Positions 27,274-37,510 of a stretch of 64,000 nucleotides of DNA are shown here, one piece after another. The DNA lies in contig NZ_CP061204.1 in NCBI RefSeq assembly GCF_014621775.1, positions 1,322,501 to 1,386,500 of the forward strand, read 5' to 3'. The DNA comes from Stenotrophomonas sp. 169. GTDB lineage: Bacteria; Pseudomonadota; Gammaproteobacteria; Xanthomonadales; Xanthomonadaceae. A program made the translations under genes and the position numbers. Every line of letters starts with the position of its first letter. Position 1 is the stretch's first letter. The notes under the pieces are model-generated. The model had not been told where the DNA came from, did no database searches, and saw nothing but the letters and a program-made list of their open reading frames with translations.

Positions 27274-28632
27274 ATGAAATCCCTGCATCTGTTCCTGCGC
27301 TTCGCCATTGTCGGCGGGCTGATCCTGCTGCTGCTGGTTCCGCTGATGATGATCCGCAGCGTCATCACCGACCGTAGCGAGTACCGCGAAGAAGCCTTCC
27401 GTCGCGTGGCCGAAAGCCGTGCGGGTACGCAGCAACTGGTCGGGCCGGTGCGTGTGGTGCCCTGGATCGAGCGCACCACGGTCGCCGTCGTCGACAAGGC
27501 GGGCAAGACCACCACCGAAGTGCAGACCACGCAGGGGCATTGGCTGCAGATGCCGCAGCAGCTGACCGTGGATGGCCGAATGCTGCCGGACCAGCGCTCG
27601 GTCGGGTTGTTCAAGGTGCCGGTGTACAGCTGGCAGGGCAAGATCACGGCTGCATTCTCCGCCGATGACTACCCGATCAAGACGGGCCGCACGTACGGCA
27701 CGCCGTATCTGGCGGTCGGGCTGAGCGACGTGCGCGGACTGGTCGGCACGCCGAATCTGCGGGTCAACGGTGCGCCGCTGCGCCTGCAGCCCGGCGTGGG
27801 CGTGGCCGATGAGCTGGGTCGCGGACTGCAGGCCGAGGTCGCCGGTTTCAGCGATCCCGCCGGTGGCCTGCTGGCGGCCAGCCGCGTGGAGCTGGAGCTG
27901 CAGGTCGATGGCAGCCGCTCGCTGGCCGTGGTGCCGGTGGGCGATGACAACCAGATCGCCCTGCGCTCCACCTGGCCACATCCCTCGTTTGCCGGTGCGT
28001 TCCTCCCCAACGAGCGCCGCGTCGATGCGCAGGGCTTCGAGGCCCGCTGGGCGGTCTCGTCGCTGGCCTCGGATGCACAGCGCCAGCTGCGTGCTGGCGA
28101 TTCCTCGGCCCAGTCGGTGGAGGTATCGCTGGTGGACCCGGTGGACGTGTACACCCAGGCCGACCGCGCATCCAAGTACGGCGTGCTGTTCGTCCTGCTG
28201 ACCTTCGTCGGCTTCCTGTTGTTCGAACTGATCCGACAGCTGCGCATCCACCCGCTGCAATACCTGATGGTGGGCCTGGCGCTGGCGATCTTCTTCCTGC
28301 TGCTGATCAGCCTGTCCGAGCACATCGCCTTCTGGCAGGCGTATCTGGTATCGGCGCTGGCGTGTATCGGGCTGCAGGCGGTGTACCTGGCCAACGTGCT
28401 GGGGCACTGGAAGCGGGGCGCAGGCTTCGCGCTGATGCTGACGGTGCTGTACGGCGCGCTGTATGGCCTGCTGGTGTCGGAAAACAATGCACTGCTGATG
28501 GGTTCGCTGTTGCTGTTCGGCATCCTGGCGCTGGTGATGTGGGTGACCCGCCGGGTCGACTGGTATGCACTGGGGATGGGCGGGCCGCCGGCCCTGCCTG
28601 CGGACGATGACGCGCGCACCGGCGTGCGCTGA
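27274..28632 (+). CDS. creD: Cell envelope inner-membrane protein CreD
   Basis: A 452-residue inner-membrane protein. An N-terminal helix (about 8-28) precedes a periplasmic domain of about 270 residues, then five or six helices in the last third (from about residue 300, VLFVLLTFVGFLLFELI onward). The opening with RSEYREEAFRRVAES and VGPVRVVPW is typical of CreD. CreD expression is a CreBC read-out and supports envelope integrity; its biochemical role is unknown. The ATG at 27274 follows GAGG by 7 bp and starts the first helix; the open frame from 27046 upstream crosses a SMAG pair and the Cre tag. A strong terminator follows. Confidence 0.93.
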   Translation: MKSLHLFLRFAIVGGLILLLLVPLMMIRSVITDRSEYREEAFRRVAESRAGTQQLVGPVRVVPWIERTTVAVVDKAGKTTTEVQTTQGHWLQMPQQLTVDGRMLPDQRSVGLFKVPVYSWQGKITAAFSADDYPIKTGRTYGTPYLAVGLSDVRGLVGTPNLRVNGAPLRLQPGVGVADELGRGLQAEVAGFSDPAGGLLAASRVELELQVDGSRSLAVVPVGDDNQIALRSTWPHPSFAGAFLPNERRVDAQGFEARWAVSSLASDAQRQLRAGDSSAQSVEVSLVDPVDVYTQADRASKYGVLFVLLTFVGFLLFELIRQLRIHPLQYLMVGLALAIFFLLLISLSEHIAFWQAYLVSALACIGLQAVYLANVLGHWKRGAGFALMLTVLYGALYGLLVSENNALLMGSLLLFGILALVMWVTRRVDWYALGMGGPPALPADDDARTGVR

Positions 28633-28655
28633 AGCCGGCCTGATGCATCACCCTG

Positions 28656-28696
28656 GCAGGGCCACATTCCGGATCGGAATGTGGCCCTGCTTCTTT
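28656..28696 (+). terminator. Rho-independent terminator after creD
   Basis: A 15-bp perfect stem (GCAGGGCCACATTCC with its complement) around a 5-nt loop is followed by TTCTTT. Confidence 0.85.
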
Positions 28697-28780
28697 GCGT
28701 GACCTTAGGCATCTGCGACCTGGCGGGGTCGCCTCTACACTCGATGGTTGACCAATGATGGTGTGAGCCGGGGGAAGCCG

Positions 28781-30382
28781 ATGTTGAAGTGGGGAGTGCT
28801 GGCCGTTGCGCTGGCCGTGAGCAATCCGGCGATGGCGCAGCGCGCCGAGCCGGTCGACCTGGACATGGTCAGCAAGATCCGCCAGGAGGCATTCCATCGC
28901 TCGCAGGTGATGGATACCTTCAGCCACCTCACCGAGTCCATTGGCCCGCGGCTGACCAACTCACCGGCGATGGCGCAGGCCAACGCGTGGACGCGCGGCA
29001 AGTTCAGCGAATGGGGGCTGAGCAACGTGCATGACGAAGCCTTCGATGATTTCGGCCGTGGCTGGGAGTTCACCTCCGCCCGCGTGGAGATGCTGGGTGA
29101 GCGCGTGCAGCCGCTGCATGCATTGCCCAAGGCATGGACGCCGGGTACCAACGGACCGGTGGAAGGCGAGCTGGTCCAGGTGGACATCAAGAAGCTGGCG
29201 GACCTGGAAAAGTACAAAGGCACGCTGCGCGGCAAGATCCTGCTGCTGGGCGAGGCACGCGAGTACAAGCGTGGCACCGAGCCGGACTCGCACCGCCATG
29301 ATGCGACCTCGCTGGAGGGCCTGCAGGAGTTCACCCTGCCGAAGAATGCAGCGGCCGAGAAGGAGAAGCGGGTCAAGGAGTACAGCGAGCGGCAGGCGCT
29401 GGCCAAGGCCACCAATGCCTTCTTCGTGGAAGAGGGCGCATTGGCCGCGATCAGCATCAGCGGCTGGGACAACGGCATCATCCGCGTCGCCGGCGGCGGT
29501 TCGCGCAGGGCCGGTGAGTCGGCCGGCATCCCCGAGCTGGCGATGATTTCCGAGCACTTCAATCCGTTGGTGCGGGCGCTTGCCAACAAGCAGGCGGTGA
29601 AGCTGCGCGTGGACGTGGCAGCGCGCTTCACCGATGCAGCCAACCAGCCCGGCTACAGCACGCTGGCCGAGCTACGCGGCAGCAGCAAGGCCGACGAAGT
29701 GGTGATGCTGGGCGCGCACCTGGATTCATGGCATACCGGCACCGGCGCAGCGGATAACGCGGCGGGGGTGGCGGTGATGATGGAAGCGATGCGCATCCTC
29801 AAAGCGGTCGGGGCCAAACCGAAGCGCACGATCCGGGTTGCGCTGTGGAGTGGCGAAGAGCAGGGGTTGATCGGCTCGCAGGCCTACGTAGCCAAGCATT
29901 TCGCGCAGTTCCCGGAGCCCACCGATCCGGCGCAGAAAGCGCTGCCGGCCTCTTTGCGCGAGCCCACCGGTGCGCTGCTCAAGCGCCGCGACTACGACAA
30001 GTTCTCCGTCTACTTCAACATGGACAACGGCTCCGGCCGCTTCCGCGGCATCTACGCGCAGGAAAACCTGGCCGCGATGCCGGTGTTCGAAGCCTGGCTG
30101 AAGCCCTTCAACGACGTGGGCGCCACCACGGTGGCCAGCCGCAACACCGGCTCTACCGACCACATCAGCTTCGATCGCGTCGGCCTGCCGGGCTTCCAGT
30201 TCATCCAGGACAAGCTGGATTACTTCAGCAACGTCCACCACAGCCACCTGGACACCTGGGACCACGCCGAGCCGGAAGACCTCAAGCAGGCCGCCGCCAT
30301 CGTCGCCTCGTTCGTGTACAACGCCGCCACCCGCGACGACCTGTTCCCGCGCAAGACCCTAAAAGGGGACGGAGGGGATTAA
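28781..30382 (+). CDS. Exported M28 family zinc aminopeptidase
   Basis: A 533-residue peptidase with a signal peptide (cleavage after PAMA, about residue 19), a PA-like domain (about 120-270) and an M28 catalytic domain. Metal ligands are visible in GAHLDSWHTG, AADNAAGVAV, WSGEEQG and HHSHLDTWD, so it should be an active two-zinc aminopeptidase in the periplasm or outside the cell. The ATG at 28781 follows GGGGAAG and begins the signal peptide. The last six residues KGDGGD and the TAA stop are encoded by the left arm of an inverted repeat shared with another gene of this window, so the native C-terminus has been replaced or extended. Confidence 0.93.
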   Translation: MLKWGVLAVALAVSNPAMAQRAEPVDLDMVSKIRQEAFHRSQVMDTFSHLTESIGPRLTNSPAMAQANAWTRGKFSEWGLSNVHDEAFDDFGRGWEFTSARVEMLGERVQPLHALPKAWTPGTNGPVEGELVQVDIKKLADLEKYKGTLRGKILLLGEAREYKRGTEPDSHRHDATSLEGLQEFTLPKNAAAEKEKRVKEYSERQALAKATNAFFVEEGALAAISISGWDNGIIRVAGGGSRRAGESAGIPELAMISEHFNPLVRALANKQAVKLRVDVAARFTDAANQPGYSTLAELRGSSKADEVVMLGAHLDSWHTGTGAADNAAGVAVMMEAMRILKAVGAKPKRTIRVALWSGEEQGLIGSQAYVAKHFAQFPEPTDPAQKALPASLREPTGALLKRRDYDKFSVYFNMDNGSGRFRGIYAQENLAAMPVFEAWLKPFNDVGATTVASRNTGSTDHISFDRVGLPGFQFIQDKLDYFSNVHHSHLDTWDHAEPEDLKQAAAIVASFVYNAATRDDLFPRKTLKGDGGD

Positions 30383-30454
30383 GTCGTATCTGGCTTGAAT
30401 TGATGAACAAAAGGGGGCGGGTGGATTGCGACTTAATCCCCTCCGTCCCCTTTT
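30361..30454. repeat. Inverted repeat element with 26-bp arms (copy 1)
   Basis: Perfect 26-bp arms at 30361-30386 and 30429-30454 begin AAAAGGGGACGGAGGGG and surround a 42-nt loop. The left arm encodes the end of the M28 peptidase; the right arm is 37 bp before gltX. The C4T4 end of the right arm could also work as a terminator. An identical-arm copy lies at 54459-54543. Confidence 0.92.
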
Positions 30455-30491
30455 GGTAAAATCGGGGGACAACCGTTGCTCCGAGCGTCCC

Positions 30492-31895
30492 ATGACCTGC
30501 CGCACCCGCTTTGCCCCCAGTCCCACCGGCTACCTGCACATCGGTGGTGCCCGCACCGCGTTGTACTGCTGGCTGGAGGCCCGCCACCGTGGCGGCGAGT
30601 TCGTGCTGCGTATCGAAGATACCGACCGCGAGCGCAGCACCCAGGGCGCCATCGACGCGATCCTGGAGGCGATGGAGTGGCTGGGCCTGGGCTATGACGA
30701 GGGTCCGATCTACCAGACCCAGCGCGTGGCGCGTTACAAGGAAGTGGCCGAGCAGCTGGTGGCTGACGGCAAGGCGTACTACGCCTACGAGACCAAAGAC
30801 GAGCTCGACGCGATGCGCGAAGCCGCCATGGCCAAGCAGGAGAAGCCCCGCTACAACGGCGCGGCGCGTGAGCAGGGCCTGGCCTACCGCGAGGATCCGA
30901 ACCGGGTGATCCGTTTCAAGAACCCGCTTGAAGGCACGGTGGTGTTCGACGATCTGATCAAGGGCCCGATCGAGATCGCCAACAGTGAGTTGGACGACAT
31001 GGTGATCTTCCGTCCGGACGGTTACCCGACCTACAACTTCGCCGTCGTGGTGGACGACTGGGACATGGGCATCACCGAGGTCATCCGTGGCGATGACCAC
31101 ATCAACAACACCCCGCGGCAGATCAACCTGTACGAAGGCATCGGCGCACCGGTGCCGAAGTTCGGCCATATGCCGATGATCCTGGACGAGCAGGGGGCCA
31201 AGCTGTCCAAGCGCACCGGCGCGGCCGATGTGATGCAGTACAAGGATGCCGGCTATCTGCCCGAAGCGCTGCTGAGCTATCTCGCCCGTCTGGGCTGGTC
31301 GCACGGTGACCAGGAGATCTTCAGCCGCCAGGAGCTGATCGACCTGTTCGATGTGACCAACTGCAATTCCAAGGCGGCGCGGCTGGACATGGCCAAGCTG
31401 GGTTGGGTCAACCAGCACTTCCTGAAGACCGAAGCGCCTGCGTCGATCGCGCCGGCACTGGTCTATCAGCTGGAAAAGCTGGGCGTGGACCTGAACGCAG
31501 GTCCGTCGCCGGAGGATGTCGTGATCGCGTTGCGCGAGCGGGTGCAGACCCTGAAGGAAATGGCCGAGAAGGCCGTGGTCTGGTACCAGCCGTTGACTAC
31601 CTACGATGACGCTGCCGTGGCCAAGCACCTCAAGGCGGGCGCGGATGTCCCGCTGGGCAAGGCGCGTGAGCTGCTGGCGGCCCTGCCGGAGTGGACTGCC
31701 GAGAGCGTGGGGGTGGCGCTGCACGATGCGGCCGCGGCGCTGGAGATCGGCATGGGCAAGGTCGCGCAGCCGCTGCGCGTGGCCATCACCGGCACCCAGG
31801 TGAGCCCGGATATTTCGCAGACGGTGTACCTTGCCGGACGCGATGAGGCCTTGAAACGCATCGATGTTGCCATCACCAAGATAGCAGCGGTCTGA
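30492..31895 (+). CDS. gltX: Glutamyl-tRNA synthetase
   Basis: A 467-residue class I synthetase charging tRNA-Glu. The HIGH motif appears as HIGG (residues 16-19, in [13 protein letters not shown]) and the KMSKS motif as KLSKR, both usual for GluRS. Length is standard (about 470). The ATG at 30492 yields the conserved [13 protein letters not shown]; a frame from 30426 would begin within the repeat element and is rejected. zur follows 25 bp downstream and may be co-transcribed. Confidence 0.97.
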
Positions 31896-31920
31896 TCCCG
31901 CCCCGAACCGGAGAATCCGC

Positions 31921-32406
31921 ATGTCCGCCAAGCACGCCTGTACGGCCCCGCATCACCACGTCCATGACGCAACGGATTTCGTCGGGGTGGTCGAGCGTGT
32001 CTGCCGCGAGCGTGGACTGCGGCTGACCCCGATCCGGGCCAACGTGCTGCGCCTGATCGCCGAGGCCGGCAAGCCGGTCAAGGCGTATGAACTGCTGGAG
32101 TGGGTACGCAGTGGCAAGGGCGTGGGGGCCGATGCGCCGCCCACGGTCTACCGCGCGCTGGATTTCCTGATGGCCAATGGCTTCGTGCACAAGCTGGAAT
32201 CGGTGAACGCGTTCGTGGCCTGCCATCACCCCAGCAGTGCCGCACATTCGGTGCCCTTCCTGATCTGCAACAGCTGCCACAGCGCGGTGGAACTGGAAGA
32301 CCGCGAGATTGTCAGCCAGTTGGAAAAGCGCGCCAAGGAGCTGGGTTTCCAGCCGCAGGCGCAGACGCTGGAAGTGCACGGACTCTGCGCCCGCTGCGCG
32401 GGGTGA
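31921..32406 (+). CDS. zur: Zinc uptake regulator Zur (Fur family)
   Basis: A 161-residue Fur-family repressor: winged helix (about 20-95, RLTPIRANVLRLI and TVYRALDFL) and a metal-binding dimer domain with structural-zinc Cys pairs CNSC and CARC. The regulatory site includes the His-rich ACHHPSSAAH stretch. The N-terminal His cluster (APHHHVHDATDF) and these spacings point to Zur rather than Fur. With zinc bound it should repress uptake genes; two Zur-like sites lie before the ZnuD-like receptor and MerC-like gene at 39.7-39.9 kb. It lies just after gltX. Confidence 0.92.
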   Translation: MSAKHACTAPHHHVHDATDFVGVVERVCRERGLRLTPIRANVLRLIAEAGKPVKAYELLEWVRSGKGVGADAPPTVYRALDFLMANGFVHKLESVNAFVACHHPSSAAHSVPFLICNSCHSAVELEDREIVSQLEKRAKELGFQPQAQTLEVHGLCARCAG

Positions 32407-32420
32407 ATTTTTGTGGTGTT

Positions 32421-32450
32421 GCCGGGCCTGCGGCCCGGCACCTGCGTTTT
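32421..32450 (+). terminator. Hairpin after zur, possible terminator
   Basis: GCCGGGC-CTGC-GGCCCGGC forms an 8-bp GC stem (32421-32439), with a TTTT run seven bases later. The T-run is distant, so function is uncertain. Confidence 0.4.
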
Positions 32451-32540
32451 CGAGCAACAGCAAGAGCAACGGCTGCAGGGCTGCGTGTAGGTGGGGCGGG
32501 GTGGGTTGGCGGGAGACGGCAAGAGCCGCATCCATGCGTG

Positions 32541-33834
32541 CCTCGTTTCGCGCCATCCATGGCGGGTCCACGTCATCGCATTCGCGCTGCCGCTCCCACG
32601 CTTTGCTTCGCAAACCGTGGGCCCCGTCTCACCAGCACCCACACCCGCCGCTTCGCGGCCGCCCCTGACTCAGGGGCTCCCTACACCCGACGGATCATCG
32701 CCATCTGTAGCGCCGACCCATGGTCGGCGGAATGTTCCCGCCAACGGCCCGCTGCGCTCGCCGACCATGGGTCGGCGCTACCGCTTTTCTTTTTTTATTA
32801 CGCGGCTGGCGGCCACGGAACCTGCCAGAGGGCCGGGCGGTGGGGCGGGGCGGGGGCGTTGAGCGCCATGGATGGCGGGGTCCACGTCATCGCATTCGCG
32901 CTGCCGCTCCCACGCTTTGCTTCGCAAACCGTGGGCCCCGTCTCACCAGCACCCACACCCCGCCGCTTCGCGGCCGCCCCTGACTCAGGGGCTCCCTACA
33001 CCCGACGGATCATCGCCATCTGTAGCGCCGACCCATGGTCGGCGGAATGTTCCCGCCAACGGCCCGCTGCGCTCGCCGACCATGGGTCGGCGCTACCGCT
33101 TTTCTTTTTTTATTACGCGGCTGGCGGGCACGGAACCTGCCAGAGGGCCGGGCGGTGGGGCGGGACGGGGGCGTTGAGTGCCATGGATGGCGGGTCCACG
33201 TCATCGCATTCGCGCTGCCGCTCCCACGCTTTGCTTCGCAAACCGTGGGCCCCGTCTCACCGGCACCCACACCCCGCCGCTTCGCGGCCGCCCCTGACTC
33301 AGGGGCTCCCTCCTCCAGATGGGTCAATGGGGTCTGCGGTAGCGCCGAGCCGTGCTCGGCGGAATGTCTCCGCCAACGGCCCGCTGCGCTCGCCGACCAT
33401 GGGTCGGCGCTACCGCTTTTCTTTTTTTATTACGCGGCTGGCGGCCACGGAACCTGTCAGGGTGCCGGGCGGTGGGGCGGGACGGGGGCGTTGAGTGCCA
33501 TGGATGGCGGGGTCCACGTCATCGCATTCGCGCTGCCGCTCCCACGCTTTGCTTCGCAAACCGTGGGCCCCGTCTCACCAGCACCCACACCCCGCCGCTT
33601 CGCGGCCGCCCCTGACTCAGGGGCTCCCTACACCCGACGGATCATCGCCATCTGTAGCGCCGACCCATGGTCGGCGGAATGTTCCCGCCAACGGCCCGCT
33701 GCGCTCGCCGACCATGGGTCGGCGCTACCGCTTTTCTTTTTTTATTACGCGGCTGGCGGCCACGGAACCTGTCAGGGGGCCGGGCGGTGGGGCTGGGCGG
33801 GGGCGTTGAGCGCCATGGATGGCGCGAAACGAGG
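32541..33834. repeat. Array of four ~315-bp structured repeat units, framed by inverted repeats
   Basis: Four tandem, nearly identical units start at 32561, 32874, 33189 and 33506 (lengths 313, 315, 317, 315; end 33820). Each has, in order, a hairpin CCCACG...CGTGGG with an inner TTTGC/GCAAA stem, a GCCGC-TTC-GCGGC hairpin, a CCCCTGACTCAGGGG hairpin, an inverted SMAG pair, a T-rich stretch and a G-rich tail. The array is framed by perfect 23-bp inverted repeats (32541-32563 and 33812-33834; core CGTTTCGCGCCATCC), with weaker symmetry extending about 30 bp outward. SMAG pairs: 32707/32760, 33022/33075, 33339/33392, 33654/33707 (22 bp each). Unit lengths are not multiples of three, so no reading frame is kept. 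No gene is seen in 32407-33938. Confidence 0.9.
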
Positions 33835-33938
33835 CCCGCAGGAGCGGCTTTTGCCGTCCCCCGACCAGCGCCACCGCCCGGCCCAAGCTCAGCTGTAGCT
33901 CTCCAGCCAACCGCGAGGGGGGCACCCGTTCGACCTAC

Positions 33939-35144
33939 TCACTGCGCGGGACGCGCGACCACCGGGGCCGCCGGCTCTACCGACGTATCCACTTTCGCGA
34001 TCACCGACATCCCCGGCCGCAGGCGCACCGCCAGCGGTTGATCGGCGTCGATCGCGATCCGCACCGGCAGCCGCTGTACCACCTTGGTGAAGTTGCCGCT
34101 GGCGTTGTCCGGCCGCAGCACGCTGAACTCCGAACCGGTCGCCGGGGCGATCTCTTCGATATGGCCGCGCAGCACCTCGCCCTGGAACGCATCCACCGCG
34201 AAGGTGGCCGGCTGGCCGATGCGCATCGGCCAGGTCTGGCCTTCCTTGAAATTGGCCACCACCCACAACGTGTCCGGCACCAGGAACAGCAGCTGTGAAC
34301 CGGCTGCAACGTATTGCCCGGCGCGCGCGCTGGCCTCGCTGACTTGTCCGTCCCGCGGTGCGTGGATGACCGTGTTGGCCAGGTCGATGCGCGCCAGTTC
34401 CAAGGCAGCCTCGGCGCTTTCCACCTGCGCTTCCAGTCCCTTGCGCGCCACACGGGTGGACACCAGGGTCTCTTCGGCGATCTGGATCTGTGCCTGCGAC
34501 TGCTGCACACCGGCCTGCGCCGAGGCCTGGCCGGTGCGGAACTTGTCGCGGTCGTTCAGGGCGACCAGTCGCTGCGCGGCGAGCTGCTCATACCGTGCCA
34601 GTTCCGCACGCGAACGCTGCAGCTCGGACTGTCCGGCCGACAGCGTGGCCTTGGCCGAGGCGATCTGCGCGCGGTTCTGTGCCTGCGACTGATCGGAGTT
34701 GGCCAAGGCCGCCCTCGCACTGTCCAACGCGGCTTCCGCTTGGGCGACACGCTGGTGGTAGATGCGGTCGTCGATGCGCAGCAGCACCTCCCCCTGTTTC
34801 ACATGCTGGAAGTCCTTGACCAGCACCTCGGTGATGTAGCCGTTGACCTGCGGGGCCAGCACCGTCACCTGTCCGCGCACGTAGGCGTTGTCGGTGGTCG
34901 CGATGGCCGTGGTGAACGGCCACAGCTGCCATGCACGCAGGATCAACGCGATGCCGATCAGGGCGATCACCACCGCCAGGATCACTGCGCGGTTGCTGGG
35001 CGTGAGGTACTTCGGCGCACCGTCGCCGGTGGCCGTGCGGGTCACCGGTGGCGGTGGCGCGGGTGCAGGCGCGGCATCGGTAGGCGGCGGCGGATTGACG
35101 TTGTCCGCTGCATCGTCATCGCGGGGAGGCTGTTGTGGGGACAT
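33939..35144 (-). CDS. emrA: HlyD/EmrA-type membrane fusion protein
   Basis: A 401-residue periplasmic adaptor. A Pro-rich cytoplasmic N-terminus (about 1-45), one transmembrane helix (about 52-72, VILAVVIALIGIALILRAW), a lipoyl/biotinyl-like half (DNAYVRGQVTVLAPQVNGYI), a long alpha-hairpin coiled coil (about 125-235) and beta-barrel follow. It couples the MFS pump encoded just upstream to an outer-membrane channel for multidrug efflux. No TolC-type gene is present here. It starts 9 bp after the pump's stop, as last gene of the operon. In S. maltophilia the comparable system is EmrCABsm, but that one is preceded by MarR and an outer-membrane gene, so this is a different paralogue. Confidence 0.88.
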   Translation of the reverse strand: MSPQQPPRDDDAADNVNPPPPTDAAPAPAPPPPVTRTATGDGAPKYLTPSNRAVILAVVIALIGIALILRAWQLWPFTTAIATTDNAYVRGQVTVLAPQVNGYITEVLVKDFQHVKQGEVLLRIDDRIYHQRVAQAEAALDSARAALANSDQSQAQNRAQIASAKATLSAGQSELQRSRAELARYEQLAAQRLVALNDRDKFRTGQASAQAGVQQSQAQIQIAEETLVSTRVARKGLEAQVESAEAALELARIDLANTVIHAPRDGQVSEASARAGQYVAAGSQLLFLVPDTLWVVANFKEGQTWPMRIGQPATFAVDAFQGEVLRGHIEEIAPATGSEFSVLRPDNASGNFTKVVQRLPVRIAIDADQPLAVRLRPGMSVIAKVDTSVEPAAPVVARPAQ

Positions 35145-35153
35145 GGAATCGAC

Positions 35154-36833
35154 TCAGCGTGGTGCAGCGGCCGGAGGCGGCGCCACAGGAGGGAAAGAAG
35201 AGGAACGGCGCTTGCGCCACTGCTTCATCACCGCGGTCCACGTGGACAGCAGCAACAGCCATCCAAGGAACCCCAGCGCGATCCAGCCGGTGACCGTGAA
35301 TACATCGTTGAAGCCGCGCACGTTGGCCTCGCGTCGGGCGATCTGCGCCAATTGCGCTGTGCCTTGTGCGCTGCGCAGCATCGGATCGGTGATCTGTGCG
35401 GCGTAGATCTGCTGCTGCAGCCGCAGCCGCTGCGCCACCACCGGATCGGCGGGGTCGAGCTGGCTGACCAGGGCGCTGGAATAGATCTGTTCGCGGTGCA
35501 GCTGCACGGTGCCCAGTACGGCCGACCCGGCCAGTCCACCGAGGGTCTGGGTGATCGACAGGGTGACCAGGAAGGTGATCATGTGGTCCACGCCCTGTTT
35601 CAGCACGGCGGTGATGCCGAGCATGATCAGCGGGCCCATGAACATGCCCGAACCCACGGCGGCCAGGAACTGGCTGACGAAGAAATCATGCGGACGGTCC
35701 AGGCTGGTGCGGTGCTGGTCCAGCAGCGCGGCGCTGCCGAGCAGCAGGATGGCCATCAGCAGCTGGGGGATCAGCCGCTTCGGCCCGAAAGTGAGCGAGC
35801 TGGCGGCGATGCCGGTGACCACGCCGGCCAGGATCACCGCGAACAACGGCCGCATCTGGTCCGGCCCCATGCCGAGGATGCGCATCAGCCCGACCACGCC
35901 GTAGGACTGCTCGGTGGTCAGGAAACGCAGCAGGAACGCCCCGACGATGAAATGCATCACAGGCAGGCTGAAAAGCCAGCGCGTCTGCAGCAGCGGATTG
36001 CGCCGATGGTGTTCGATGACGAACGCCGTGGTGGCCAGCGCGATCGAGGCCACCAGGGCCCAGCCCAGCCACGGCGTATCCAGCCACCAGCGCACATAGC
36101 CCTGCGCCAGCACCACGACCAGCAGGCCGACGGCCGGTGCCATCAGGGCGAAGGTGAGGAAGTCCATCGGCTCGAAGGCCTTGATCTGCACGCCCGGTGG
36201 CAGCTTCAACAGGACCACCGCCGCAAACGCGCACAGGGCAAGCCCGGCTTCGAAGAAGTACAGCAGGTGCCATTGGCCGGTGCCGACCAGACTGGGGGAA
36301 ATCACCCACGCCAAGGGCACCGCCAACTGCGAAAGCCCCACCCCGATGACCAGCAGGTTGCCGGTATAGCGGCGCGGCAGCGACTGCAGCATGTACAGCG
36401 TGCCGAGCGTCGAACAGGCGGCACCGGCAAAGCCACTGGCCGCGCGCAGCAGTACCGTGGTTTCGAACGTGCCGACCACCAGGTGCAGCAGCGCAAGTGC
36501 GGCGTACAGGCCGAGCCCGATCTCCGCGAACAGGCGGATGCCATATTGCTGGCGGAACTTGAACGCCAGCAGGTTGGCGGTGACGTTGACCATCACGTAC
36601 GACGCCACCAGCCAGCTGCCCTGGGCCGGGGTCAGGCCCAGCTGACCCTGCAGGAAGGGCAGGTTGGCAGTGACCAGCGCGGTGCCGAGGCCGCCGGTGA
36701 TCGCCACCAGCACCGATACCATCGCATAGGCCATGCGCCGGTGCGGCGGGTGCCACGGCATTGAAGCGGACCCGGGCAGGGTCGGCTTTTCGTGTTCTTC
36801 CCAGTCCGGGATGGGCTTGAGGTACTGCGACAT
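35154..36833 (-). CDS. emrB: MFS multidrug transporter (DHA2, EmrB-like)
   Basis: A 559-residue drug/proton antiporter with about 14 predicted helices. The DHA2 opening (TANLPFLQGQLGLTPAQGSW) and LVASYVMVNVTANLL in helix 2 are family hallmarks. It pairs with the EmrA-type adaptor 9 bp downstream and should extrude hydrophobic compounds across both membranes. Its start overlaps the stop of the TetR gene by one base (TGATG), so expression is coupled to that of its regulator. Substrates are not predictable. Confidence 0.9.
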   Translation of the reverse strand: MSQYLKPIPDWEEHEKPTLPGSASMPWHPPHRRMAYAMVSVLVAITGGLGTALVTANLPFLQGQLGLTPAQGSWLVASYVMVNVTANLLAFKFRQQYGIRLFAEIGLGLYAALALLHLVVGTFETTVLLRAASGFAGAACSTLGTLYMLQSLPRRYTGNLLVIGVGLSQLAVPLAWVISPSLVGTGQWHLLYFFEAGLALCAFAAVVLLKLPPGVQIKAFEPMDFLTFALMAPAVGLLVVVLAQGYVRWWLDTPWLGWALVASIALATTAFVIEHHRRNPLLQTRWLFSLPVMHFIVGAFLLRFLTTEQSYGVVGLMRILGMGPDQMRPLFAVILAGVVTGIAASSLTFGPKRLIPQLLMAILLLGSAALLDQHRTSLDRPHDFFVSQFLAAVGSGMFMGPLIMLGITAVLKQGVDHMITFLVTLSITQTLGGLAGSAVLGTVQLHREQIYSSALVSQLDPADPVVAQRLRLQQQIYAAQITDPMLRSAQGTAQLAQIARREANVRGFNDVFTVTGWIALGFLGWLLLLSTWTAVMKQWRKRRSSSFPPVAPPPAAAPR

Positions 36834-37399
36834 CAGGCCTCCGCGGCGTCGGTTCCCTGCAGGCCCGCGCGCAGCAGCTGCAGCGCACGTCGTGCCAGTT
36901 CAGTCCGCTCGGCGCGGTCCTTGCCGCGCAGCGCGGCCCCCAGCATGCCTGAAATCAGTGAAATGTCCGTGGAGGTCAGGTCGGGCCGGCACAGGCCCGC
37001 CGCGATGGCGCGCTGTATCGGCGCTTCCATCAGGGTGCGGACGGTTTCGCGGGCGATGGTGACGGTCGGATCGTCCGGATGCACCGCGCGCCAGTAATCG
37101 GCCAGTGCGGGCGAGTCGACGATACGGCGACCCATGCCGTCCAGGAGTTCGAACAGCGCATCATCCCGATCACCCAGTTCGACCACCTGTCGTCGGATAC
37201 GCTCGACGGTGCGTTGCAGCAGTGCTTCGATCAACGCCGCGCGGTCGGGGAAGTTGCGGTACAGCGTGGCCCGCCCTACGTGCGCGCGCTCGACGACCAG
37301 GTCCAAGGGCGCGGTGACGCCGTGGTTGCCGAACACATGGTCGGCGGCATCCAGGATCTGTGCGCGGCGTGCTGCCGCGTCGGCACGTAAAGAGGTCAT
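36833..37399 (-). CDS. TetR/AcrR-family repressor of the efflux operon
   Basis: A 188-residue regulator. The helix-turn-helix is in residues about 10-55 (ILDAADHVFGNHGVTAPLDL, then VGRATLYRNFPDRAAL), followed by a helical ligand domain. It is the first gene of the operon and overlaps the pump gene by one base, so it very likely represses the operon and itself. A near-perfect palindrome lies 10 bp before its start. The ATG at 37399 is chosen because the HTH then begins at the usual distance; the frame upstream to 37528 crosses the palindrome. Confidence 0.9.
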   Translation of the reverse strand: MTSLRADAAARRAQILDAADHVFGNHGVTAPLDLVVERAHVGRATLYRNFPDRAALIEALLQRTVERIRRQVVELGDRDDALFELLDGMGRRIVDSPALADYWRAVHPDDPTVTIARETVRTLMEAPIQRAIAAGLCRPDLTSTDISLISGMLGAALRGKDRAERTELARRALQLLRAGLQGTDAAEA

Positions 37400-37408
37400 G
37401 ACGCTATT

Positions 37409-37428
37409 TTCGGACAAAAGTGTCCGAA
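37409..37428. promoter_or_regulatory. Palindromic operator, probable TetR-family binding site
   Basis: TTCGGACA-AAAG-TGTCCGAA is a perfect 8-bp inverted repeat 10 bp upstream of the regulator start, where a bound repressor would block the promoter. Half-site spacing is typical for TetR-family dimers. Confidence 0.75.
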
Positions 37429-37510
37429 ATGCGATGGCCGTTTGCGTCATCGGGCGCCCGCGTTGGCGTCCGGTGGGCTTCGTGAGAGGGCAGTGATCCC
37501 AAGGGAAGCA

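Follow-up and report, generated by a model that had tools for sequence, protein, structure and literature searches.

In the genome of Stenotrophomonas sp. 169, a gene for a Zur-like regulator and a gene for an EmrA/HlyD-like adaptor converge on an interval that holds four near-identical repeat units (Table 1). This locus lies in the window analysed here, a stretch of 64,000 nucleotides (NZ_CP061204.1, positions 1,322,501 to 1,386,500), and raises the question of what the units consist of, how they came to stand in tandem, and what they might do beside genes. The names of the flanking genes are those of their best matches, and both NCBIfam scores fall under the curated cut-offs.

Table 1. Features of the array and its flanks, in window positions.
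Feature	Position	Strand	Basis or remark
Zur-like Fur-family regulator, converges on array	31921..32406	+	PF01475 7e-12; best NCBIfam PRK11639 Zur 131 bits, cut-off 167 not reached
EmrA/HlyD-like periplasmic adaptor, converges on array	33939..35144	-	PF13437 6.2e-19; TIGR00998 1.1e-69, 235 bits, cut-off 390.8 not reached
Tandem array, four composite units, first to last palindrome	32551..33824	.	TRF and junction palindromes
Unit 1	32551..32863	+	313 bp
Unit 2	32864..33178	+	315 bp; 98.4% identity to unit 1
Unit 3	33179..33495	+	317 bp; linker and first SMAG variant; 92.3-93.3% identity to units 1, 2, 4
Unit 4	33496..33810	+	315 bp
Left terminal half of H (arm and hairpin), broken off at B start; outer inverted repeat	32501..32564	-	limits as tested
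Complete H palindrome, small hairpins flanked by 27-nt arms	33777..33884	+	fold and comparison
B copy 1	32564..32677	- (as modelled)	model R1, 128.8 bits
B copy 2	32878..32992	- (as modelled)	model R1, 131.6 bits
B copy 3	33192..33306	- (as modelled)	model R1, 128.5 bits
B copy 4	33510..33624	- (as modelled)	model R1, 131.6 bits
Inverted SMAG (GTAG-type REP) pair, unit 1	32707..32781	.	repeat search
Inverted SMAG pair, unit 2	33022..33096	.	repeat search
Inverted SMAG pair, unit 3, variant first member	33336..33416	.	repeat search
Inverted SMAG pair, unit 4	33654..33728	.	repeat search
T-rich tract after SMAG pair, unit 1	32785..32800	+	read from sequence
T-rich tract, unit 2	33100..33115	+	read from sequence
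T-rich tract, unit 3	33417..33432	+	read from sequence
T-rich tract, unit 4	33732..33747	+	read from sequence

A tandem array of four composite units

The four-unit array is confirmed. Tandem Repeats Finder (TRF) reports 32550-33824 as a single array with a period of 315, 4.0 copies and 94% matches. A 14-bp palindrome, [C/T]GCCAT(CC/GG)ATGGCG, stands at 32551, 32864, 33179 and 33496, and a fifth copy (33811-33824) closes the array. Palindrome spacing and TRF agree with the four units of 313, 315, 317 and 315 bp given in a first-pass annotation of the DNA. The enclosing inverted repeats with weaker outward symmetry that it described were also recovered: 32535-32564 and 33811-33840 form an outer inverted repeat of 30 nt at 97% (repeat search), and a gapped comparison extends over the whole 64 nt tested (32501-32564), with a score of 92, where the best of 1000 single-base shuffles scores 37.

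Repeat search and reading of the sequence bear out the same annotation in placing an inverted SMAG pair and a T-rich stretch in every unit. Pairwise identity among units 1, 2 and 4 is 97.8-98.4%; the divergence of unit 3 lies mostly in a variant block spanning the linker and first SMAG, where a differing SMAG subtype had rightly been noticed. The three small hairpins described for each unit are present, but the count does not hold, since they are part of an element of ~115 nt with four hairpins. The statement that no reading frame is kept needs a similar amendment. Open reading frames do cross the array (464 and 287 aa, for example), yet the unit lengths break the register, and a codon-usage gene caller places no gene between 32406 and 33939. 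The unit was rejected as a coding tandem repeat on the latter ground.

Tandem repeats are easily misassembled, and this general weakness is what an assembly artefact would have in its favour here. Against it, the genome stands in a single contig with 99.99% completeness, the units differ from one another in sequence, and a second genomic place has the same junction type. An artefact is accordingly extremely improbable.

The unit as a dispersed mosaic

Comparison of copies indicates that the unit is a mosaic of three repeats: B (~115 nt, four hairpins), C (the inverted SMAG/REP pair and then the T-tract) and H (a long palindrome of ~110 nt). With unit 2 as query, the source genome gives 115 local matches (best 40 of 381 candidates scored). 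These include at least 17 near-full copies (query positions 20-315 or more) at 13 places, with four copies in the window and two at one other place; partial copies cover only query positions 1-235, 153-315 or 1-184, for example. In the 30 loci read, the separable parts are half of H or none, B, a linker, the inverted SMAG pair, the T-rich tract, a G-rich arm and H. The left end of the array keeps only half of H, and the left H is missing altogether from 7 of the 17 copies classed as near-full. A simple inversion of the interior between two H copies was rejected by inspection, because the G-rich arm beside each complete H matches that H.

Across the genus, 83 of 91 genomes contain a match to the unit (best ≤8 candidates scored per genome). 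Among the matches listed, those outside close relatives mostly cover ~15-128 of the unit, which is the B part, and a near-full unit occurs only in the source genome and its relative G023. The possibility that the unit is unique to the zur locus, which the first-pass annotation had named as counting against its proposals, is rejected by the near-full copies at 13 places in the genome and by the matches across the genus.

H has at least 40 copies in the source genome, and the complete palindrome in the window (33776-33884) folds at -86.2 kcal/mol (z -6.9). The 50 distinct H sequences compared from this genome include 37 whose 27-nt arms mismatch at 0-4 positions. In 11 others B replaces one arm, touching the GCCATGGATGGC hairpin; of the remaining two, one is shifted (in the fixed-width comparison) and one is broken. 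In an alignment of the 37, with the arm-replaced, shifted and broken sequences left out, 95.4% of cells pair and double changes occur in 16 of 37 pairs (104 cells), as in 0 of 500 shuffles. The arms form about three sequence classes that change together, and the independent events are fewer than the cells because these classes are few.

The SMAG pair, RAYT genes and mobility

The arms of the SMAG pair are perfect over 23 bp in units 1, 2 and 4, and match at 88% over 26 nt in unit 3. The arrangement is that of a GTAG-type REP dimer, in which the GTAG tag and a short palindrome occur in inverted pairs (GTAG...CTAC, 23-bp arms). The pair folds at -55.8 kcal/mol (z -8.0) in unit 1 (32700-32802) and at -54.7 kcal/mol (z -6.0) in unit 3 (33333-33434). 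Together with the T-rich DNA that follows, it would suit a terminator on the + strand, and might thereby stop read-through between the zur-like gene and the emrA-like gene that converges on it. A pattern scan limited to loops of 3-8, shorter than the loop of the SMAG pair, found no canonical terminator inside the array. Its only canonical terminator-like site in 32400-33940, where 1.5 are expected by chance, is at 32420-32440, outside the array, and an intrinsic terminator defined by pattern within the array was rejected on this basis. The site at 32420-32440 is a strong hairpin, TGCCGGGCCTGCGGCCCGGCA, directly after zur; hairpins resembling TGCCGGGCCTGCGGCCCGGCA also follow zur in two close relatives, G023 and G011.

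The source genome has three Y1 transposase genes. A RAYT-type gene (PF01797, 3.6e-10) at L061 (G000:C1:1747953-1748276 +/- 1500) has dimers like the SMAG pair on both sides (paired by inspection), as a cognate RAYT would, and is the gene most likely to mobilise module C. On each side of L061 the SMAG dimers stand several in succession, in a BIME-like cluster.

Comparison with published repeats, in each case with the sections of the cited papers drawn on here, places the array near the BIMEs of Stenotrophomonas, which are built of REP dimers and the segments between REPs (Nunvar et al. 2010, PMC2817692). Both are head-to-tail arrays of a basic module with RAYT-associated REP dimers, here with four tandem modules, and the array resembles a BIME in how it works and for the most part conforms to one. 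It differs in a module of ~315 bp, in two extra structured families (B and H), and in ends formed by an H palindrome instead of a REP. Tandem SMAG loci have also been described (Roscetto et al. 2008, PMC2613905). The inverted SMAG pair and its tandem reiteration together with flanking DNA are common to SMAG/GTAG repeats (PMC2613905, PMC3733652) and the array, whereas the reiterated units at those loci are 50 and 103 bp (the two with a length given), and B and H are not SMAGs. By description only, H can be set beside the TIR families, which with the TIRtrons comprise inverted repeats unlike REPs in multiple copies in S. maltophilia (PMC3733652); non-REP inverted repeats and multiple copies are the shared features. 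At L060 (G000:C1:3915782-3916114 +/- 1500), a Y1 transposase gene of the source genome is enclosed by non-REP inverted repeats with GGGGACGGAGGGGATTAAGTCG in them, an arrangement like that of the TIRtrons in those sections of PMC3733652; these ends are unlike H or B.

These comparisons bear on a different account of the composite, as a non-autonomous transposable element whose ends would be the outer inverted repeats. A RAYT-type (IS200-like) enzyme would move it, and tandem units would form by rolling-circle copying, the mechanism proposed for Stenotrophomonas BIMEs (Nunvar et al. 2010, PMC2817692, in the sections drawn on). The three Y1 genes, the SMAG dimers of the unit's type on both sides of L061, this published mechanism and the scatter of composite copies through the genome are all consistent with such an element. 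However, the genome's own three RAYTs give 0 tblastn matches in 212 B-holding loci (more distant RAYTs could escape), and none of 33 Y1-gene loci, each taken with 1.5-kb flanks, contains a match to B. At least six genomes, some of them drafts, have B and no Y1 match (G119, G120, G124, G127, G128, G134). Moreover, with the left H absent from 7 of 17 copies, the inverted repeats do not bound every copy, as the terminal inverted repeats of a MITE or IS do. A transposable composite is, on this evidence, unlikely. The two locus searches, a partial sample, give B none of the RAYT linkage of REPs, and a tie between B and RAYT genes was rejected. A composite REP-derived repeat, one of the first-pass candidates, is thus upheld for the SMAG pair, which resembles the RAYT-flanking dimers, and for the dispersed mosaic, but not for B.

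Origin of the array and history of the locus

In the window, the leftmost copy of the junction palindrome has a CC core and the four that follow have GG. The same order, CC, GG, GG, is seen in the three palindromes of another array of the source genome (L014/L011). The two units of this second array share 98.4% identity with each other and 91.4-93.0% with units 1, 2 and 4. The units of the second array are closer to each other than to those of the window, which argues for two amplifications with one junction type. Two separate amplifications of this kind in turn point to misalignment between near-identical palindromes flanking a single composite. Recombination between the palindromes flanking one original composite is the most likely source of the array, and the recombination proposed among the first-pass candidates thereby finds a place as its origin, given the shared palindromic junctions and the second array. 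Unit 3 is 73-85% identical to units 1, 2 and 4 over alignment columns 120-200 and 90-100% elsewhere, and the best dispersed copies match this block at 87.5 and 97.5%. The pattern fits conversion of the block from another copy.

The proposed course of events starts from a composite of half-H, B, SMAG pair, T-tract and H. In its assembly, B would have been joined to the arm side of the H hairpin and to the SMAG pair, and the mosaic would then have been copied to many intergenic sites. For amplification, the step that sequence comparison supports well, the near-identical 14-bp palindromes bounding the composite on left and right would have permitted misaligned recombination or replication slippage, giving head-to-tail units of ~315 bp. 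Unit 3 may later have taken its linker and first SMAG from another copy, and unit number is probably near-neutral. Tandem amplification of one composite intergenic repeat, when taken to include this assembly, this amplification and a function of B at gene 3' ends, is on balance a probable account of the array.

The locus itself differs between species, each represented by one genome. zur was found in 90 of 91 genus genomes, and 30 loci were retrieved for comparison, the source locus included; B is at zur in one of the 30, that of the source genome. The zur-efflux gap is 1,532 bp in the source genome. In its relatives, with lengths taken from BLAST ends, the gap is ~482 and 508 bp in the closely related G023 and G011, ~0-382 bp in 22 loci and 867-1,110 bp in four. 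The gaps of G023 and G011 contain H-type palindromes and no B, and that of G011 also contains a SMAG pair. An apparent extra reading frame, absent from the source genome, is seen in the four genus members with gaps of 867-1,110 bp (L068, L080, L082, L087). In L083 (G043:C1:1195922-1198505), the efflux gene is not within reach of zur, and a second partial zur match (query 355-486, 92%) lies ~2 kb downstream of zur; the arrangement suggests an insertion by which the 3' end of zur was duplicated.

Structure and covariation of element B

A single copy of B folds stably (z -3.1). Alignment A1 comprises 39 genus-level copies out of 49 distinct B references, the ten left out being source-genome copies, one of them the hybrid L013. 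In A1, 99.0% of cells are paired, and double changes are seen in 5 pairs (28 cells). None of 500 shuffles reaches the observed level in four of the measures; for the fifth, further pair types, 6 of 500 do. Alignment A2 comprises 28 distinct rows of 31 matches, 19 of which come from 18 loci in five other genera. Here, 99.4% of cells are paired, double changes occur in 17 of 28 pairs (91 cells), no measure is reached by any of 500 shuffles, and sliding the partners lowers pairing to 34-58%. A2 was fitted to the model, which favours pairing; its double changes are nonetheless far above those of the shuffles. Covariation of B across genera is strong, and the lack of covariation that the first-pass annotation would have counted against a structured RNA is contradicted by the double changes of both alignments.

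G-U pairs carry information on the strand. In A1, the strand opposite to window + has 33 G-U cells, spread over 7 pairs, and the other strand 3 cells in 3 pairs; two pairs account for 28 of the 33. In A2 the corresponding values are 19 cells in 7 pairs against 2 in 2, and rows from other genera only, with 14 cells against 2, again favour the strand opposite to window +.

B does not have the form of a REP, which is a palindrome of 20-40 bp with a GTAG or CGTC tag; it is ~115 nt long with four hairpins, and no tag is conserved in A1 or A2. An Rfam search of 32100-34200 gives 2 matches up to E 1, both far under the gathering score and the better one at E 0.074, and assigns B to no family. B has no name in Rfam or in the sections drawn on of the literature on such repeats (PMC2613905, PMC3733652, PMC2817692, PMC3686654, PMC12306157), and a term search in PMC2267715 gave no mention of Xanthomonas or Xylella names. 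Neither B nor H is described in the titles or abstract openings of the literature searched, a body of work mostly outside subscription papers, so that B may be in print.

Distribution of element B

Model R1 finds B at 33 places in the source genome (best 150 candidates scored) and, within the family Lysobacteraceae (Xanthomonadaceae), in 188 of 297 genomes and 32 of 54 genera (best ≤12 candidates per genome). An order-wide search matches 100 of 397 genomes (best ≤9 candidates per genome), six of them outside the family, where E does not fall below 2.2e-8; Infernal E-values are rough, the calibration being short. The exact B core pattern occurs in at least 118 stretches of named records, and 79 of the 80 records listed belong to Stenotrophomonas, Xanthomonas, Pseudoxanthomonas, Luteimonas, or unclassified Lysobacterales or Lysobacteraceae. 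The remaining record, L204 (JAHREJ010000027.1), carries B under the label Bacillus subtilis. It is taken as a probable contamination because the neighbouring protein groups with one from Stenotrophomonas rhizophila (L162). B on mobile DNA was rejected, the exact core pattern being absent from viral contigs and a B copy having no blastn match in plasmids or phages.

In G190, a genome of another genus, four consecutive B copies at 112-bp spacing follow a gene stop, and no SMAG or H is visible in the sequence; amplification is therefore not confined to the composite. Six genomes of group g7 (G328, G220, G347, G356, G284, G269) have two B copies in opposite orientation ~19-29 kb apart, one of which, in G328, sits between bamA and lpxD (L141, L285).

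Position of element B beside genes

The genes beside B were examined in 175 loci outside the source genome, which include all 118 exact-core-pattern loci and which, after removal of duplicate DNA, leave 152 copies at 46 sites. Sites were grouped by one shared neighbour and may be merged; genes come from a codon-usage caller trained on the window, with its calls inspected on 28001-37500. Of 115 distinct copies with a sense gene upstream, 85 have the 5' end of B (window + orientation) ≤40 nt from the stop of that gene, and the median distance over the 115 is 3 nt. The other end of B comes as near to the stop of a facing gene in 5 of 32 copies, with a median of 151.5 nt. Counted by site, the 5' end is this close at 22 of 35 (median 20) and the other end at 4 of 25 (median 131.5).

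By context, the 46 sites comprise 15 tandem-sense, 6 tandem-antisense, 10 converging, 4 diverging and 11 tied or with a neighbour unknown; the sense-to-antisense ratio of 15 to 6 distinct sites has p = 0.078. Both orientations occur at three sites, among them ribA-ribH (L037, L053). The largest site, nrdA-nrdB, holds 36 of the 152 copies. Family searches, with one example each, name ribonucleotide reductase alpha and beta, BamA, LpxD, elongation factor P, FolD, IMP dehydrogenase, ribA-type and ribH-type proteins and an HslV-type proteasome subunit at B sites. In the source genome, 30 of the 33 B places divide into 17 converging, 11 tandem and 2 diverging, four of the converging ones being the window array. 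A weak copy there (L281) lies after one gene and before another, which we take to be NAD-kinase-like, in the arrangement seen in other species.

Candidate roles of element B

B is most likely active at gene 3' ends because its upstream end tends to sit at stop codons. There it would act as a cluster of RNA hairpins that protects or cuts mRNA, in the manner of intercistronic REPs. REPs are reported to protect mRNA from decay and to stall ribosomes, with cleavage close to the stop (PMC12306157, in the sections drawn on). B resembles the intercistronic and 3'-terminal REPs of E. coli in lying at stop codons or between cistrons, where such mRNA protection or cleavage is reported, and differs from them in its ~115 nt and four hairpins, its lack of a conserved GTAG tag and the failure to find a RAYT partner (PMC12306157, same sections).

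The strand bias of the G-U pairs does not suit action of B in sense mRNA, and the modest excess of sense over antisense sites (p = 0.078) and the three sites with both orientations also count against such action. The G-U bias favours instead a structured RNA made from the strand on which B folds best, window minus, as small or antisense RNAs from several copies; the strong covariation and the stable fold of one copy (z -3.1) would agree with this. Yet 32400-33940 contains no sigma-70-type promoter (0 found, 0.1 expected), the Rfam search gave no family, and within tandem gene pairs B is read from the opposite strand at 15 distinct sites against 6 from the minus strand. RNAs of this kind are a quite improbable explanation. 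For the structured RNA array suggested by the first-pass annotation, the strong covariation of B speaks in favour, while the evidence on strand, G-U pairs against stop-codon orientation, is in conflict.

Alternatively, B and H could work at the level of DNA, as single strands or cruciforms that bind protein or pause replication, with the array as a binding platform. Long palindromes are what such a role would call for, and H keeps its 27-nt arms within 0-4 mismatches in 37 of 50 distinct sequences; the 10 converging and 4 diverging sites of B, besides the tandem ones, also accord with it. We know of no protein partner for B or H, however, and a 5' end of B at stop codons is hard to explain without transcription or translation. 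A DNA-level role is held to be improbable.

Beyond the activity at gene 3' ends preferred above, B may be an undescribed structured element of the Lysobacteraceae (Xanthomonadaceae), self-spreading or repeatedly recruited, that has no RAYT partner and is amplified in tandem in more than one genus. Seeded at stop codons in core-gene operons (nrdA-nrdB, bamA-lpxD, efp, folD-guaB), it would set the expression ratio of neighbouring cistrons. This wider proposal is tentative, a possibility more than an expectation.

Significance

The array alone is of modest interest, because tandem REP arrays are already known in the genus; its kind is established in Stenotrophomonas, and the new part is B. What sets B apart is a structure kept across genera, a preferred position at stop codons, and a presence in operons as basic as that of ribonucleotide reductase. 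B occurs in genomes that have RAYT genes as well as in others that lack them, and through these copies the spread of non-REP intergenic repeats can be tested directly. If B controls mRNA ends or the ratios of cistrons, it would be a shared regulatory part that has been missed since it resembles repeat noise.
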